Positions 2,879 through 25,219 of a stretch of DNA of 26,027 nucleotides are shown here, one piece after another. The DNA comes from a virus. Every line of letters begins with the position of its first letter. The stretch's first letter is position 1. The notes beneath the pieces are model-generated. The model saw nothing but the letters and a program-made list of their open reading frames with translations. It was not told where the DNA came from and did no database searches. Made by a program: the position numbers and the translations under genes. Location: positions 1 through 26,027 of the IMG/VR virus record IMGVR_UViG_3300042566_000175, one strand, 5' to 3'.

Positions 2879-3087
2879 AATCCTTTTTCTTTTTTGAATG
2901 TTTCTAATTCTCCATTGTTTAACTTAAAAGAATCTAATCCCATAGCTCTTGCTACAGACCATTCTGCAAACTCAATAGCGTATTCGTCTGCTATTTGTTC
3001 TAATTGTTCTGCATCATCAGTAATTGGCAATACATAATATTGATTTAGTTTATTTCTACATTTTATAAATTTTTCTTTTAGTGTCAT
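2875..3087 (-). CDS. Hypothetical protein, 70 aa
   Basis: A soluble, acidic, helical protein. It has a basic start (MTLKEKFIKCRNKLNQYY) and a central helix ADEYAIEFAEWSVARA that resembles short EFAEW-containing phage proteins of unknown function. It sits between the sigma-like factor gene and the DUF3310 gene, with ATGA overlaps on both sides. Its glutamate codons are almost all GAA (eight GAA to one GAG by eye), while both neighbours prefer GAG. This points to a separate origin. Confidence 0.75.
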   Translation of the reverse strand: MTLKEKFIKCRNKLNQYYVLPITDDAEQLEQIADEYAIEFAEWSVARAMGLDSFKLNNGELETFKKEKGL

Positions 3088-3578
3088 ATTAAATCCTGTA
3101 TTTGTTTTCTAATAATTTTTACTGCGTTTCTTAAACTCCAATACGTTATTTTGCTTTCTCTACTCAGCTCCGACACAGATTTTTTTTCTATAAAGACCTC
3201 CTCAAATATCTTTCTGTAGTATTCATTCTCGCTAACGTTATCCCCTGAGCTATTATACCATCTTAGAATAGCATCGACCTCCTTAGTAATATCCTGCTCA
3301 TAGTACTCCTCGTCTATTAACTCGATATCGTCTAACTCCTCAAAGGTTACTTTCTTTTTTCTAAGGCTATCGTAATATAAGTTCTGTAATGTAATGTAAA
3401 AAAAGTAATGGTTAATCTCGTCTTTGTTATACATCAAATTCCTATCATACTTTTGCAGATAGTCATAAACTTTTAGATACATATCCTGTACCAAATCCTC
3501 ACAGTTGTACTCAGCACAGCCTAACGATCTTAGGTAGCTTATCCAGGTGTTATGATATTCTGCTATTTTTGCTAACAT
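3084..3578 (-). CDS. Phage sigma-70-like (ECF-type) transcription factor
   Basis: A 164-aa protein with the two-domain plan of an ECF sigma factor. Residues about 12-75 look like region 2: YLRSLGC, then EDLVQDMYLKVYDYLQKY, then FFYITLQNLYYDSLRKKK, matching the polymerase-binding and -10 recognition helices. After an acidic linker (about 78-105), residues 130-160 (EKKSVSELSRESKITYWSLR) form a region-4-like helix-turn-helix. Expected role: redirect host RNA polymerase to phage promoters. It overlaps the upstream 48-aa gene by seven bases. The similarity is clear in arrangement but moderate in sequence. An alternative is a non-sigma HTH regulator. Confidence 0.75.
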   Translation of the reverse strand: MLAKIAEYHNTWISYLRSLGCAEYNCEDLVQDMYLKVYDYLQKYDRNLMYNKDEINHYFFYITLQNLYYDSLRKKKVTFEELDDIELIDEEYYEQDITKEVDAILRWYNSSGDNVSENEYYRKIFEEVFIEKKSVSELSRESKITYWSLRNAVKIIRKQIQDLI

Positions 3579-3918: not shown

Positions 3919-4270
3919 AGTTATCGTTAATAAGATCCTGTAGTTTTTTAGGCGTATCCTTGTATAATTTATATAACATCATTACGACAGACGCATCGTA
4001 AATAGGTACATTAGAAATCGTTTGAATAAACTTCTCGTAAAAATCGTATACCTCACTAGTCTCCTCTTCTTTTTTATCATAGAATTTATCATAATATTTA
4101 ACCTCGATACTCTCCAGGACCTTAATAGCATTCTTTATGTGCTGCTTATCTTTCTGTTGGAATATCTTTCCTACTACTAGCTCGTGTAATTGATTCTGCA
4201 ATATCTGAGCTGTCATTACGCTAGTTACTAACTTATGCGTATAATGTTCTTTTTTTTCTTGTTCTGTCAT
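3884..4270 (-). CDS. Hypothetical alpha-helical protein, 128 aa
   Basis: Predicted almost wholly helical, with heptad-like stretches (MTAQILQNQLHELV, KDKQHIKNAIKVLESIEV, MMLYKLYKDTPKKLQDLIND). The centre is acidic-basic (KFYDKKEEETSEVYDFYEKF). It starts one base after the helicase gene ends. A helicase partner (loader or primase-interacting protein) is plausible from this position and the small helical build, but no homologous motif is visible. Function therefore unknown. Confidence 0.7.
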   Translation of the reverse strand: MTEQEKKEHYTHKLVTSVMTAQILQNQLHELVVGKIFQQKDKQHIKNAIKVLESIEVKYYDKFYDKKEEETSEVYDFYEKFIQTISNVPIYDASVVMMLYKLYKDTPKKLQDLINDNYESEYLKKLQE

Positions 4271-4271
4271 T

Positions 4272-5186
4272 TTAAAACGGACTATTTGTTTGTTCTATCA
4301 TTTTCAATAAACTTACTCCTCCAATACCGTAACCTACATTATTTTTTAAGCTACTTAACTCTATTGGGTTATCTATACTGTTAGGTCTTCCTCCGGTCTC
4401 GATCTCCTTTACTTTTCTTAAATACATATGCGACTTCATATAATCAGTCGGATGGAATATATATCTATGTATTACGATAAAGTCATCGCATCGGTTTACA
4501 TACTTTCCTCCTCCCTCAATATCCGAACTACTCGGAGGCGTTGGGTGTCCGGCATAATAGTGACCGTCTCTATGCACCTTTCTAGTAGCCTCTGTACTCG
4601 GGTGAGCACATATCCACATCGTAATCTTATTAGCCTTGCAAAAGATACGCATCTCGCTCATAGCAAAATAGTCGTAATCGTGAGTATTACCTCCTATCTC
4701 CTTTAGTAACTTACCATCTTTAGCTATCGAGTTATAAGGATCTAAAAGTATTCCGTCAAACTCCCATTGGTCCCTAACTGCTTTACATAAATCTAACAGC
4801 TCTCTATAGCTATACGTTCTATCTATGCTTATGAATTTAAAATGGTCATTGATCCATCCGACCTGTGCATTAAACTCAAACTCATCGATATGCTGTATAG
4901 GCTGCTCTGTTAAATACTCTACTAGCTTTCTTATCGTTCCGTATGTTTCATTCTCTGAAGTATAAACTAACCATTTAAGATCATACTTTTTAGAGTAACA
5001 TAACATTAAATAAAGTATTAAGCTAGTCTTACCTACGTTGGCGTGTCCTAAAATAACATTTATATTTGTAGGCTTAAATCTAAAATACTCATCTATCTCC
5101 GGTATATCTAATTTTAAACCCTCTCTAATATTCCCCTTTCGGATCTGTTTTAGAGTCTCTAGTTCTTTCTCTATATCTACTATCAT
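4272..5186 (-). CDS. Replicative DnaB-like helicase, RecA-fold ATPase domain only
   Basis: A 304-aa ATPase expected to unwind the phage replication fork as a hexamer. Walker A is GHANVGKTS (47-55). After LVYTSENE, which supplies the catalytic acidic residue near 78-80, Walker B is FDGILLDPYNS (143-153). The sensor region is ITMWICAHPSTEATR (188-202), followed by SSSDIEGGGKYVNRCDD (219-235), typical of gp4/DnaB-type motors. There is no N-terminal DnaB domain or primase domain, so this is the motor alone with a short lead (1-40). The start is an ATG 22 bases after a GAAA-loop hairpin at 5209-5230. A RadA/KaiC-like recombinase is a less likely alternative. Confidence 0.85.
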   Translation of the reverse strand: MIVDIEKELETLKQIRKGNIREGLKLDIPEIDEYFRFKPTNINVILGHANVGKTSLILYLMLCYSKKYDLKWLVYTSENETYGTIRKLVEYLTEQPIQHIDEFEFNAQVGWINDHFKFISIDRTYSYRELLDLCKAVRDQWEFDGILLDPYNSIAKDGKLLKEIGGNTHDYDYFAMSEMRIFCKANKITMWICAHPSTEATRKVHRDGHYYAGHPTPPSSSDIEGGGKYVNRCDDFIVIHRYIFHPTDYMKSHMYLRKVKEIETGGRPNSIDNPIELSSLKNNVGYGIGGVSLLKMIEQTNSPF

Positions 5187-5208
5187 TCTTTCTTTAGTGT
5201 AAAAATAT

Positions 5209-5230
5209 AGGGCAACCTTTCGGCTACCCT
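5209..5230 (-). terminator. GAAA-loop hairpin before the helicase gene (weak terminator or attenuator)
   Basis: In the minus-strand RNA, AGGGUAGCC and GGUUGCCCU form a nine-pair stem with two G-U wobbles around a GAAA tetraloop, followed by AUAUUUUUACAC. On the plus strand the same bases would leave two mismatches, so the element acts in the direction of transcription. It lies between the SSB-tip gene and the helicase gene. It probably lowers helicase expression relative to the ssDNA-binding genes. The U-run is short, so termination may be partial. Confidence 0.6.
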
Positions 5231-5236
5231 GTTATA

Positions 5237-5527
5237 TTAAAATGGCAAATCGCTTTCCTCTTGTTTAACTACTTCTCTATCTGGCATATGGTTAGAGCTA
5301 GATACTTCTGCTCTTCTCTCCATCTTAGTAAACTTAGCATAAATCTTATCCTGATCTTTCTTAGACTTCATAACATCAACTGTTAACCATCCGTTATTAG
5401 ACTCGATATAGTCTCTATGCTCAATTAAAAATTCGCTAAATTCCTTAACATTAAAATGTAAGTTAGTTACGATAAAATCAAATTTCGACTTCTTAGGTAC
5501 TAGACCTTTTATAAATACTGTTTCCAT
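5237..5527 (-). CDS. Phage ssDNA-associated protein with SSB-type C-terminal tip
   Basis: A 96-aa protein. The N-terminal two thirds (FIKGLVPKKSKFDFIVTNLH, GWLTVDVMKSKKD, KIYAKFTKMERR) resembles a small beta-rich, OB-like phage domain. A flexible polar stretch follows, and the C-terminus is EESDLPF. This closely matches the acidic-hydrophobic tip of bacterial SSB (DDDIPF), which docks replication and repair proteins. The protein may coat ssDNA or imitate the host SSB tail to recruit host enzymes. It follows the OB-like 118-aa gene by one base and precedes the helicase gene. The tip is seen directly; DNA binding is inferred. Confidence 0.6.
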   Translation of the reverse strand: METVFIKGLVPKKSKFDFIVTNLHFNVKEFSEFLIEHRDYIESNNGWLTVDVMKSKKDQDKIYAKFTKMERRAEVSSSNHMPDREVVKQEESDLPF

Positions 5528-5528
5528 A

Positions 5529-5885
5529 CTAACTAATTATCCAATTTAACATTATCTCTGCATCACTAATTACATCCTCAATACCTACTGATCTCTGAGC
5601 ATTAAACTCAGCAGACGCTTTAATACAGGTTTGTCTCATAATCGAAAGCTGTACATCCGAATTACCTGCCGGTTTCTGTCCTGGTACATCAGCTTTACCT
5701 AACAACTTAGCTGTAGAGTATTGTGCGTTAGTAATTTCGTAGTTGATATTATCTCCTATCGCTGCTTTAAAATCTCCTTTAGATAAAAAGGTTAATTCCT
5801 TTCCGTTTGCTAAAGTTACTTTCTGTTTGTTCATTCCATTCCATTCGCCGACCTGTGCGACGTTTTTTACAATACTAGTTTCCAT
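5529..5885 (-). CDS. Putative OB-like DNA-binding protein, 118 aa
   Basis: The N-terminal half alternates strands and turns (GEWNGMNKQKVTLANGKELTF, GDNINYEITNAQY) in the manner of a small OB-fold or beta-barrel. The C-terminal half is helical and contains SIMRQTCIKASAEFNAQRSV, then an acidic helix ISDAEIMLNWI. I recognise the RQxxxKAxxEF-type helix as recurring in phage replication-region proteins, often next to ssDNA-binding proteins. No enzymatic motif is present. It overlaps the upstream coiled-coil gene by 11 bases and lies one base before the SSB-tip gene, so the two probably act together on DNA. Confidence 0.6.
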   Translation of the reverse strand: METSIVKNVAQVGEWNGMNKQKVTLANGKELTFLSKGDFKAAIGDNINYEITNAQYSTAKLLGKADVPGQKPAGNSDVQLSIMRQTCIKASAEFNAQRSVGIEDVISDAEIMLNWIIS

Positions 5886-6048
5886 AGTTTAATTGATTAA
5901 ATTTCTCTGTTAATACTTCGTTTAATGTAGCTTTAAATTCATACTTCTGTACGAGCTTTAAGTTTTCTAGCTTTAGTCTTTCGACTTCGTTCTGTAGAGC
6001 CTCTATTCTAAATAGCAAATACTCTAAATGTTCGTTTCTTGTTTCCAT
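5875..6048 (-). CDS. Small coiled-coil protein, 57 aa
   Basis: Starts at the ATG at 6046-6048 (METRNEHLEYLLFRIEALQN). Heptads of Leu/Ile/Val run through residues 7-30 (LLFRIEALQNEVERLKLEN), giving a confident short coiled coil, followed by a helical end NEVLTEKFNQLNYGN. An in-frame upstream ATG at 6175-6177 exists, but its extension would read through a terminator and a promoter, so I reject it. This is the first gene after promoter P2, ahead of the OB-like and SSB-tip genes. Probably a dimeric adaptor; function unknown. Confidence 0.7.
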   Translation of the reverse strand: METRNEHLEYLLFRIEALQNEVERLKLENLKLVQKYEFKATLNEVLTEKFNQLNYGN

Positions 6049-6066
6049 TGTTTTAATTATATGGTA

Positions 6067-6097
6067 CAAATATATAAACATATTTTTAATAAAAAAA
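6067..6097 (-). promoter_or_regulatory. Bacteroidetes-type promoter P2
   Basis: The minus strand has TATATTTG (6067-6074), a TAnnTTTG -7 box, preceded by a spacer containing TTATTAAAAA, the same ten bases as in promoters P1 and P4. The -33 position reads TTTT and not TTTG, so this is a weaker version. The -7 box lies 18 bases upstream of the 57-aa gene ATG and just after the terminator at 6130-6156. It restarts transcription for the replication genes. Confidence 0.7.
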
Positions 6098-6129
6098 TAA
6101 AATGTAAACTTTTTTACAAAATTATATAT

Positions 6130-6156
6130 AAAAAAAGGGCTGCCTTTCGACAACCC
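6130..6156 (-). terminator. Rho-independent terminator with GAAA loop
   Basis: In the minus-strand RNA, GGGUUGUC and GGCAGCCC pair perfectly over eight pairs (two G-U) around a GAAA tetraloop, followed at once by seven U. This is a textbook intrinsic terminator. It lies about 75 bases downstream of promoter P5 and upstream of promoter P2, separating the ninG-like transcript from the replication transcript. Confidence 0.9.
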
Positions 6157-6199
6157 CTCTAAAACTAAAGAAAACATCTATTACTAGATATGAAAGAAC
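6130..6199 (-). ncRNA. Candidate ~70-nt RNA B between promoter P5 and its terminator
   Basis: The interval from the expected P5 start point (a few bases after 6205) to the U-run at 6130 holds no self-contained open frame. It contains a five-pair stem AUCUA/UAGAU with a GUAA loop (6176-6189), then the eight-pair GAAA-loop terminator hairpin. Promoter, structured body and strong terminator make an independent small RNA or a short attenuated leader likely. The only ATG inside would read straight through the terminator. Existence and length are inferred; the start site is approximate. Confidence 0.5.
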
Positions 6200-6204
6200 T
6201 TACA

Positions 6205-6234
6205 CAAAGATAGTTAAATATATTTAAAAACAAA
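6205..6234 (-). promoter_or_regulatory. Bacteroidetes-type promoter P5
   Basis: The minus strand has TTTG (6231-6234), 18 bases, then a perfect TATCTTTG -7 box (6205-6212). It sits just after the ninG-like gene ends, so it is not that gene's promoter. The only thing directly downstream is the hairpin interval ending in the terminator at 6130-6156. It could drive a small RNA or, on read-through, the replication genes. Confidence 0.75.
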
Positions 6235-6251: not shown

Positions 6252-6647
6252 TTATTTAATATCCAAATCTATAAGTTTATTTTTATACGTTTCTATCATT
6301 ATTTCTAAATCTGCATCCGATAGCTTTACCATTTGCTTAGATTTTATCAATAAGTCCTCAGCAAATCCATCTCCGTATTGCATATTAAGTCTATTACCAA
6401 ACTCATACTGCATACCTTGCATACCGATATTACAACCGTAGCATTGAACTTGTACGTTATACTCATCCCATCTAGTAGAGTAGTGTCTCCTGGACGCAAA
6501 ATGACCGGCTTGTAGTTTCTTATAGTTATCTGTTTTTCCGCAGGTATAACATTCTGCGATCTCGTTTTTAGCATATCGTAATCTAACGTATTGGCTAAAT
6601 ACCGAATCTAGTTTACTTACTAAAGTACTTCTTTTCGTTTTTTTCAT
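6252..6647 (-). CDS. ninG: NinG/Rap-like HNH-type recombination nuclease
   Basis: A 131-aa protein of the lambda NinG (Rap) type, a structure-specific endonuclease that cleaves branched recombination intermediates. The metal-binding layout is visible: CYTCG (Cys33, Cys36), then QAGHF (His49) in a patch LQAGHFASRRHYSTRWDEYN, then VQCYGCN (Cys69, Cys72), followed by GMQYEFGNRLNMQYG. This is the NinG order CxxC, AGH, QCxxCN. I chose the ATG at 6645-6647 (MKKTKRSTLVSKLDSVFSQY) because the extension upstream would begin at a TTG inside the terminator hairpin at 6674-6702. Expression needs passage through that hairpin from promoter P3. Confidence 0.85.
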   Translation of the reverse strand: MKKTKRSTLVSKLDSVFSQYVRLRYAKNEIAECYTCGKTDNYKKLQAGHFASRRHYSTRWDEYNVQVQCYGCNIGMQGMQYEFGNRLNMQYGDGFAEDLLIKSKQMVKLSDADLEIMIETYKNKLIDLDIK

Positions 6648-6702: not shown

Positions 6703-6736
6703 CGGATAAAAATTATTTTTGCACAGATAATTATTT
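6666..6736 (-). ncRNA. Candidate ~70-nt RNA A or attenuated leader between promoter P3 and its terminator
   Basis: From the expected P3 start (a few bases after 6742) to the U-run at 6666-6671 the RNA has an A/U-rich 5' part and then a 13-pair hairpin. It has no open frame of its own. The distance from -7 box to end of the U-run is 76 bases, almost the same as in the P5 unit (75). It may be a stable small RNA or a conditional leader for the ninG-like gene that starts 18 bases further on. Inferred from structure only. Confidence 0.5.
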
Positions 6737-25131: not shown

Positions 25132-25159
25132 ATTTTCTAGTTGTTTTATTATTACCCTA

Positions 25160-25190
25160 CAAAGATATAAACAATTTTTTAATAACCAAA
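25160..25190 (-). promoter_or_regulatory. Bacteroidetes-type promoter P4
   Basis: The minus strand has TTTG (25187-25190), 19 bases, then TATCTTTG (25160-25167). The first 15 bases TTTGGTTATTAAAAA are identical to promoter P1. It lies in a T-rich gap after the 80-aa gene that follows terL and drives the five small genes down to the terminator at 24204-24232. Confidence 0.85.
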
Positions 25191-25219
25191 CATTTTTTAA
25201 ACTTTTTTTTATTTTTTTT

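Follow-up and report, generated by a model that had tools for sequence, protein, structure and literature searches.

Described Base-Pairing RNAs and the Unit Following ninG

ColE1 RNA I is a cis-antisense RNA that acts on a primer RNA. As is generally known of plasmid copy-control antisense RNAs such as this one (cf. PMC11012335), a small RNA can act as a brake on replication functions. The model proposed here for a short phage RNA, the P5 RNA, is similar, except that its predicted targets are the translation starts of two operons rather than a primer RNA. The OOP RNA of phage lambda (PMC12197685) is likewise a short, terminated RNA; it is encoded near replication genes, and its target gene belongs to the same phage. 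However, OOP is a cis-antisense RNA encoded on the strand opposite its target, whereas the P5 RNA is encoded in trans, on the same strand as its predicted target and 1 kb away from it, and pairs imperfectly. An OOP-type cis-antisense RNA was rejected, since the P5 RNA and the helicase gene share the minus strand without overlapping. Trans-acting, base-pairing sRNAs are also encoded by phages lambda (PreS) and VP882 (VpdS), and PreS concerns DNA replication (PMC12197685). PreS acts on host dnaN in an Hfq-dependent manner and VpdS binds Hfq (PMC12197685), whereas the targets predicted for the P5 RNA are phage genes.

The FopS and GibS sRNAs of Bacteroides thetaiotaomicron (RF04319 for FopS; PMC11697453) share with the P5 RNA a length of about 70 nt, their own Bacteroidota-type promoter, a 5′ pairing region with an intrinsic terminator downstream, and pairing around the start codons of their targets. 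Translational repression is the reported effect of Bacteroides sRNAs with pairing sites close to start codons (PMC11697453). Unlike the P5 RNA, FopS and GibS are host-encoded, comprise 14 paralogues, act on host susC-like mRNAs and have a single-stranded 5′ part (PMC11697453); the P5 RNA is phage-encoded and present in one copy, has a hairpin between two pairing segments, is predicted to target phage early genes and remains below threshold in Rfam. One alternative makes the P5 RNA a member or descendant of the FopS/GibS families, with host glycan transporter mRNAs as its targets. In its favor are a full-length but weak match to RF04319 (25.3 bits, E 0.02–0.05) and the report of FopS in one Caudovirales phage (PMC11697453). 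Nevertheless, the gathering score of 56 bits was missed, relatives gave no above-threshold FopS match, the matching seed-type segment GUAAUAGAU is not kept in the related loci L085, L384 and L381, and the target found is the phage’s own helicase. Identity with FopS was thus rejected, and we regard a FopS/GibS origin as very improbable. Neither the window nor seven relatives gave an Rfam match at the thresholds of that database.

Post-transcriptional control within Bacteroidota phages is almost unexplored, and a literature search covering open-licence papers returned no description of the P5 RNA. With its conserved position and coevolving predicted targets, this RNA would provide a readily testable example of a phage that times or limits its replication genes by means of its own trans-acting RNA.

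A Free-Standing Promoter-Terminator Unit

The window analyzed here, from a Bacteroidota phage, is the whole of a 26,027-nt virus record (IMG/VR IMGVR_UViG_3300042566_000175), the main genes of which lie on the minus strand. No close phage DNA was found in INPHARED and no relatives in a species-level bacterial genome collection. Bacteroidota-type promoters follow the consensus TTTG at −33 and TAnnTTTG at −7. Six full sites (TTTG-N17-21-TAnnTTTG) occur in the window, compared with 0.64 expected from shuffles (maximum 3), and four of them are intergenic and on the minus strand. The P5 unit follows ninG (6252–6647, minus strand; Pfam NinG, E 3e-10). As the preliminary description had noted, the promoter TTTG-N18-TATCTTTG is present after the ninG stop at 6252, spanning 6234–6205 on the minus strand, with the −33 element at 6231–6234 and the −7 element at 6205–6212. 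Judging from promoter spacing, transcription would start at about 6200–6198, and the U-run (6136–6130) of an intrinsic terminator (stem 6160–6133, minus strand) ends exactly 75 nt past the −7 box, so that the predicted small RNA of about 70 nt occupies 6130–6200 (minus strand). The spacing and the GAAA loop of this terminator agree with the earlier account; the stem has 12 pairs and can be called perfect only if its G-U pairs are counted.

Within the interval, a GUAA-loop hairpin (6191–6174, minus strand) contains the five Watson-Crick pairs described previously, or seven with G-U pairs included. Folding of the interval yields this hairpin and the terminator at −22.1 kcal/mol (z −4.8 versus shuffles). 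There is no self-contained frame, as the one beginning with the ATG at 6177 continues through the terminator, and in the corresponding L085 RNA no ATG precedes the terminator. The unit accordingly shows the hallmarks of an sRNA gene, namely its own promoter, an intrinsic terminator and the absence of a conserved reading frame.

Directly 3′ of the sRNA terminator lies the promoter of the early operon (6067–6104, minus strand; TATATTTG box at 6074–6067), followed by the first gene of that operon (METRNEHL..., 5875–6048, minus strand). Given this second promoter, the early operon needs no P5 transcription, and the P5 unit is free-standing rather than a leader. The same layout in relatives speaks against the attenuator that had originally been considered. 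A variant of that idea, in which P5 transcripts escape termination in certain circumstances and the unit serves as an early-operon leader, could draw on its location directly upstream of the operon and on the frame from 6177 that is open into the first gene. It is at odds, however, with the ATG-free L085 RNA and with the promoter that the early operon itself has, in the window as in relatives, between the terminator and the first gene, and it leaves unexplained why the RNA is complementary to a gene lying 1 kb away; we give it very little credence.

A second unit, P3 (6664–6772, minus strand), lies upstream of ninG and consists of TTTG-N19-TATATTTG (box 6749–6742) and a terminator at 6703–6673. 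P3 and P5 had been proposed to be like-sized units flanking ninG. While the P3 unit is present in the sequence, the notion of a matched pair did not hold: in L381 and L384 the P3 unit is absent and the ninG promoter is located immediately at the ninG start, without an intervening terminator, so that the symmetry looks like chance. The search for P3 targets was likewise unconvincing, as the best genome-wide window (−20.2 kcal/mol), which spans the start of the gene at 5527, reached only z −1.4 in a focused test. P3 is possibly a ninG leader or attenuator peculiar to this phage.

Conservation of the Unit in Related Phages

Relatives were collected as IMG/VR ninG loci retrieved with three NinG queries, giving 127 distinct loci, which an 85% identity cut grouped into 50 clusters. 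Scanning viral contigs for exact copies of the promoter motif gave mostly chance matches and was abandoned. In 26 of the 50 clusters, the motif TAnnTTTG occurs between −3 and +39 relative to the ninG stop (shuffles 3.2 on average, maximum 7), and the full TTTG-N17-21-TAnnTTTG site follows ninG in 16 (shuffles 0.26, maximum 3), often with the −33 TTTG inside the 3′ end of ninG. At other gene ends with terminators, the full promoter was never found (0/72). Downstream of this post-ninG promoter, relatives have a terminator and then another early promoter.

Across five relatives, three pairs of the GUAA-loop hairpin are altered on both sides, and the terminator stem shows two compensatory pairs in relatives. 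The −7 element TATCTTTG and the segment GUUUUCUUU(U)AGU are invariant in the window and the nearer relatives L085, L381, L383 and L384, and RNAs of marine phages commonly start with GUUCUGUUU.

One group of freshwater phages has the ninG terminator with no TAnnTTTG promoter. In two freshwater loci that have no recognizable TAnnTTTG (L007 and L015), the post-ninG region shows weak to moderate complementarity to the start of their own ATPase gene. The promoter may therefore not be the sole route to the RNA, which in these phages might be cut from the 3′ end of ninG or made from a different type of promoter. In Flavobacterium phage 11b, Olleya phage Harreka_1 and Polaribacter phage P12002L, which have related ATPase or ninG genes, the annotated surrounding gene orders differ.

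The Helicase Translation Start as Predicted Target

To predict targets, duplex energies were computed between the part of the RNA before the terminator and gene start regions, a calculation that ignores kinetics and proteins. These energies revealed that the RNA is complementary to the beginning of the gene that follows ssb, which in the window encodes a replicative helicase-type ATPase (4272–5186, minus strand; PHROG 18375 DNA primase/helicase, E 1e-36; PHROG 19 DnaB-like, E 2e-14). The predicted site (5160–5199, minus strand) spans −13 to +26 of the helicase ATG at 5186, with a duplex energy of −28.6 kcal/mol (z −4.4), and the cofolding of the two RNAs retains a net gain of −18.3 kcal/mol after their own structures are accounted for. 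The helicase start is the best complementary site for the RNA in the 26 kb, both strands included. The gene (5186–4272) lies about 1 kb downstream of the RNA locus (6200–6130) on the same minus strand, without overlap.

Two segments flanking the small hairpin account for the pairing. The 5′ segment AGUUCUUUC (6192–6200, minus strand; GUUCUGUU in most relatives) pairs with GAAAGAACU within the helicase reading frame, and the 3′ segment GUUUUCUUUAGU (6164–6175, minus strand) is complementary to ACUAAAGAAA in the helicase leader. In L085, RNA and mRNA carry a matched one-base insertion: CUUUAG in the window RNA faces CTAAAG in the mRNA, and CUUUUAG in the L085 RNA faces CTAAAAG. Here the own pairs reach −10.6 and −11.2 kcal/mol, compared with −8.4 and −6.8 kcal/mol for the crossed pairs. 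Contiguous matches between RNA and helicase extend to 13 nt in L121 and 12 nt in L036, L054, L344, L379 and L384.

In the window, a terminator (5209–5230, minus strand) lies just upstream of the helicase start, a layout common to many relatives. In L379 and L384, a TATATTTG promoter is situated only 25–37 nt before the helicase start at 4001, and the leader of the helicase message may consequently be very short and fall almost wholly within the sRNA pairing site. In marine phages, the gene after ssb encodes a different type of ATPase, whose only match is phrog_5482, a family with no function assigned. The ATPase after ssb differs in family between phages (DnaB-like in the window, another type in marine loci such as L357) while still being a predicted sRNA target.

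Coevolution of the RNA With Two Translation Starts

Whether an RNA fits the target of its own phage better than those of others was assessed by comparing own with swapped RNA-target pairs. The discovery set comprised 26 clusters, for which RNA ends were set by rule, with several ends and start codons corrected by hand. At the helicase/ATPase start, own pairs averaged −16.0 and swapped pairs −11.5 kcal/mol (0/20,000 permutations); relative to shuffled RNAs, the mean z was −2.7, and 81% of clusters fell below −2. The first early gene gave a similar result (own −13.6, swapped −10.4 kcal/mol; 0/5,000 permutations). A weaker signal was obtained for the genes between g2 and ssb (Z −3.6), and none for the starts of ninG, ssb, g2 and the upstream and next genes.

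For a hold-out, 79 new loci were fetched with the helicase protein, giving 29 clusters that have ninG and the helicase. With automatic RNA ends, the 11 clusters with TAnnTTTG showed −19.2 kcal/mol for own pairs against −12.4 for swapped pairs (0/20,000). After the addition of one cluster and the correction of two truncated RNAs, the resulting 12 clusters gave −19.6 versus about −13.4 for the helicase (Z −5.0; 0/20,000) and −19.3 versus −13.4 for the first early gene (Z −5.2; 0/20,000), with no own-pair signal at g2, ssb and next gene starts. Among hold-out loci outside the TAnnTTTG set (L413, L421, L428, L430 and L431), pairing was weak or absent (z −1.5 to 0.3). When all 38 clusters were pooled, own pairs stood at −17.3 and swapped pairs at −11.6 kcal/mol (Z −10.7). 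A few clusters failed (L339 and L089), and some marine RNAs pair about equally well with the targets of other marine phages because the seed is shared there.

Coevolving complementarity is thus concentrated at the starts of the helicase and the first early gene. In the window itself, the helicase is the only clear predicted target, the first early gene being unconvincing (z −0.4). The P5 RNA also shows a further mark of a trans-acting, base-pairing sRNA, namely imperfect complementarity, kept by covariation, to the translation starts of mRNAs encoded elsewhere. A skeptical reading would take the unit for the ordinary terminator of the ninG operon beside a sequence that resembles a promoter by chance, with U-rich 3′ ends facing A-rich translation starts as the source of the complementarity. 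The many freshwater relatives with a ninG terminator alone and no TAnnTTTG are compatible with this reading; the enrichment and position of the promoter, together with the swaps, the shuffles and several control classes of gene starts, make it hardly credible. More generally, own-versus-swapped complementarity provides a genomic test for phage sRNA-target pairs that can be applied without expression data.

Proposed Mode of Action

On the basis of these comparisons, we consider it likely that P5 encodes a free-standing, trans-acting sRNA of about 70 nt that pairs with the start of the phage’s helicase message and represses translation of early and replication genes. In dozens of related phages, the RNA matches the helicase start, and usually that of the first early gene too, with changes that track those in the target, so that it probably serves as an inbuilt switch for the early and replication genes of the phage. 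Of the roles initially suggested for the unit, that of a regulatory RNA is favored by its retention in relatives and by its coevolution with two phage mRNAs, whereas a decoy is neither supported nor needed.

In the proposed mechanism, the segments flanking the hairpin would base-pair with the translation start of the helicase/ATPase mRNA and, in most relatives, with that of the first early gene as well. Blocking of the start codons would lower translation of both early/replication operons, and the outcome may be a dosage brake on replication or an early-to-late shut-off as infection proceeds. Given the similarity of the P5 promoter to the phage’s other promoters, synthesis of the RNA probably begins early and the RNA may accumulate, with read-through of ninG transcripts as a possible further source.

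Coevolving complementarity is silent on the sign of regulation, and the RNA could instead activate or protect the same mRNAs, or be titrated by them away from another (host) target. We regard this alternative as unlikely, although less so than the others discussed here: the pairing spans the start codon, the target regions hold little inhibitory structure that could be opened (E_B −1.4 to −9.4 kcal/mol, the exception being L355 at −14.9, which stems partly from an upstream terminator), and Bacteroides sRNAs with comparable pairing sites are repressors (PMC11697453). With such little-structured leaders, blocking of ribosome entry would be likelier than unmasking.

The P5 RNA may exemplify a wider arrangement. 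Many Bacteroidota tailed phages could carry, at a constant position between ninG and the early operon, a fast-evolving, trans-acting RNA that switches off the translation of early genes and so acts as an early-to-late timer, its pairing segments being rewritten along with the first-gene starts of both early operons, including those of unrelated helicase/ATPase types; we put this forward tentatively, at slightly less than even chances.

Further possible elements of transcriptional control were observed in the window. A sigma-factor-like gene (3084–3578, minus strand; Pfam Sigma70_r2 just under the cut-off, PHROG 1740 sigma factor) lies two genes after the helicase and might direct transcription late in infection. 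The early-operon promoter is one of a three-copy repeat: diverged copies of an early-promoter segment with a TATATTTG or TATCTTTG box lie on the minus strand at 1528–1595, 6048–6115 and 25141–25208, and they probably represent co-regulated operon starts.
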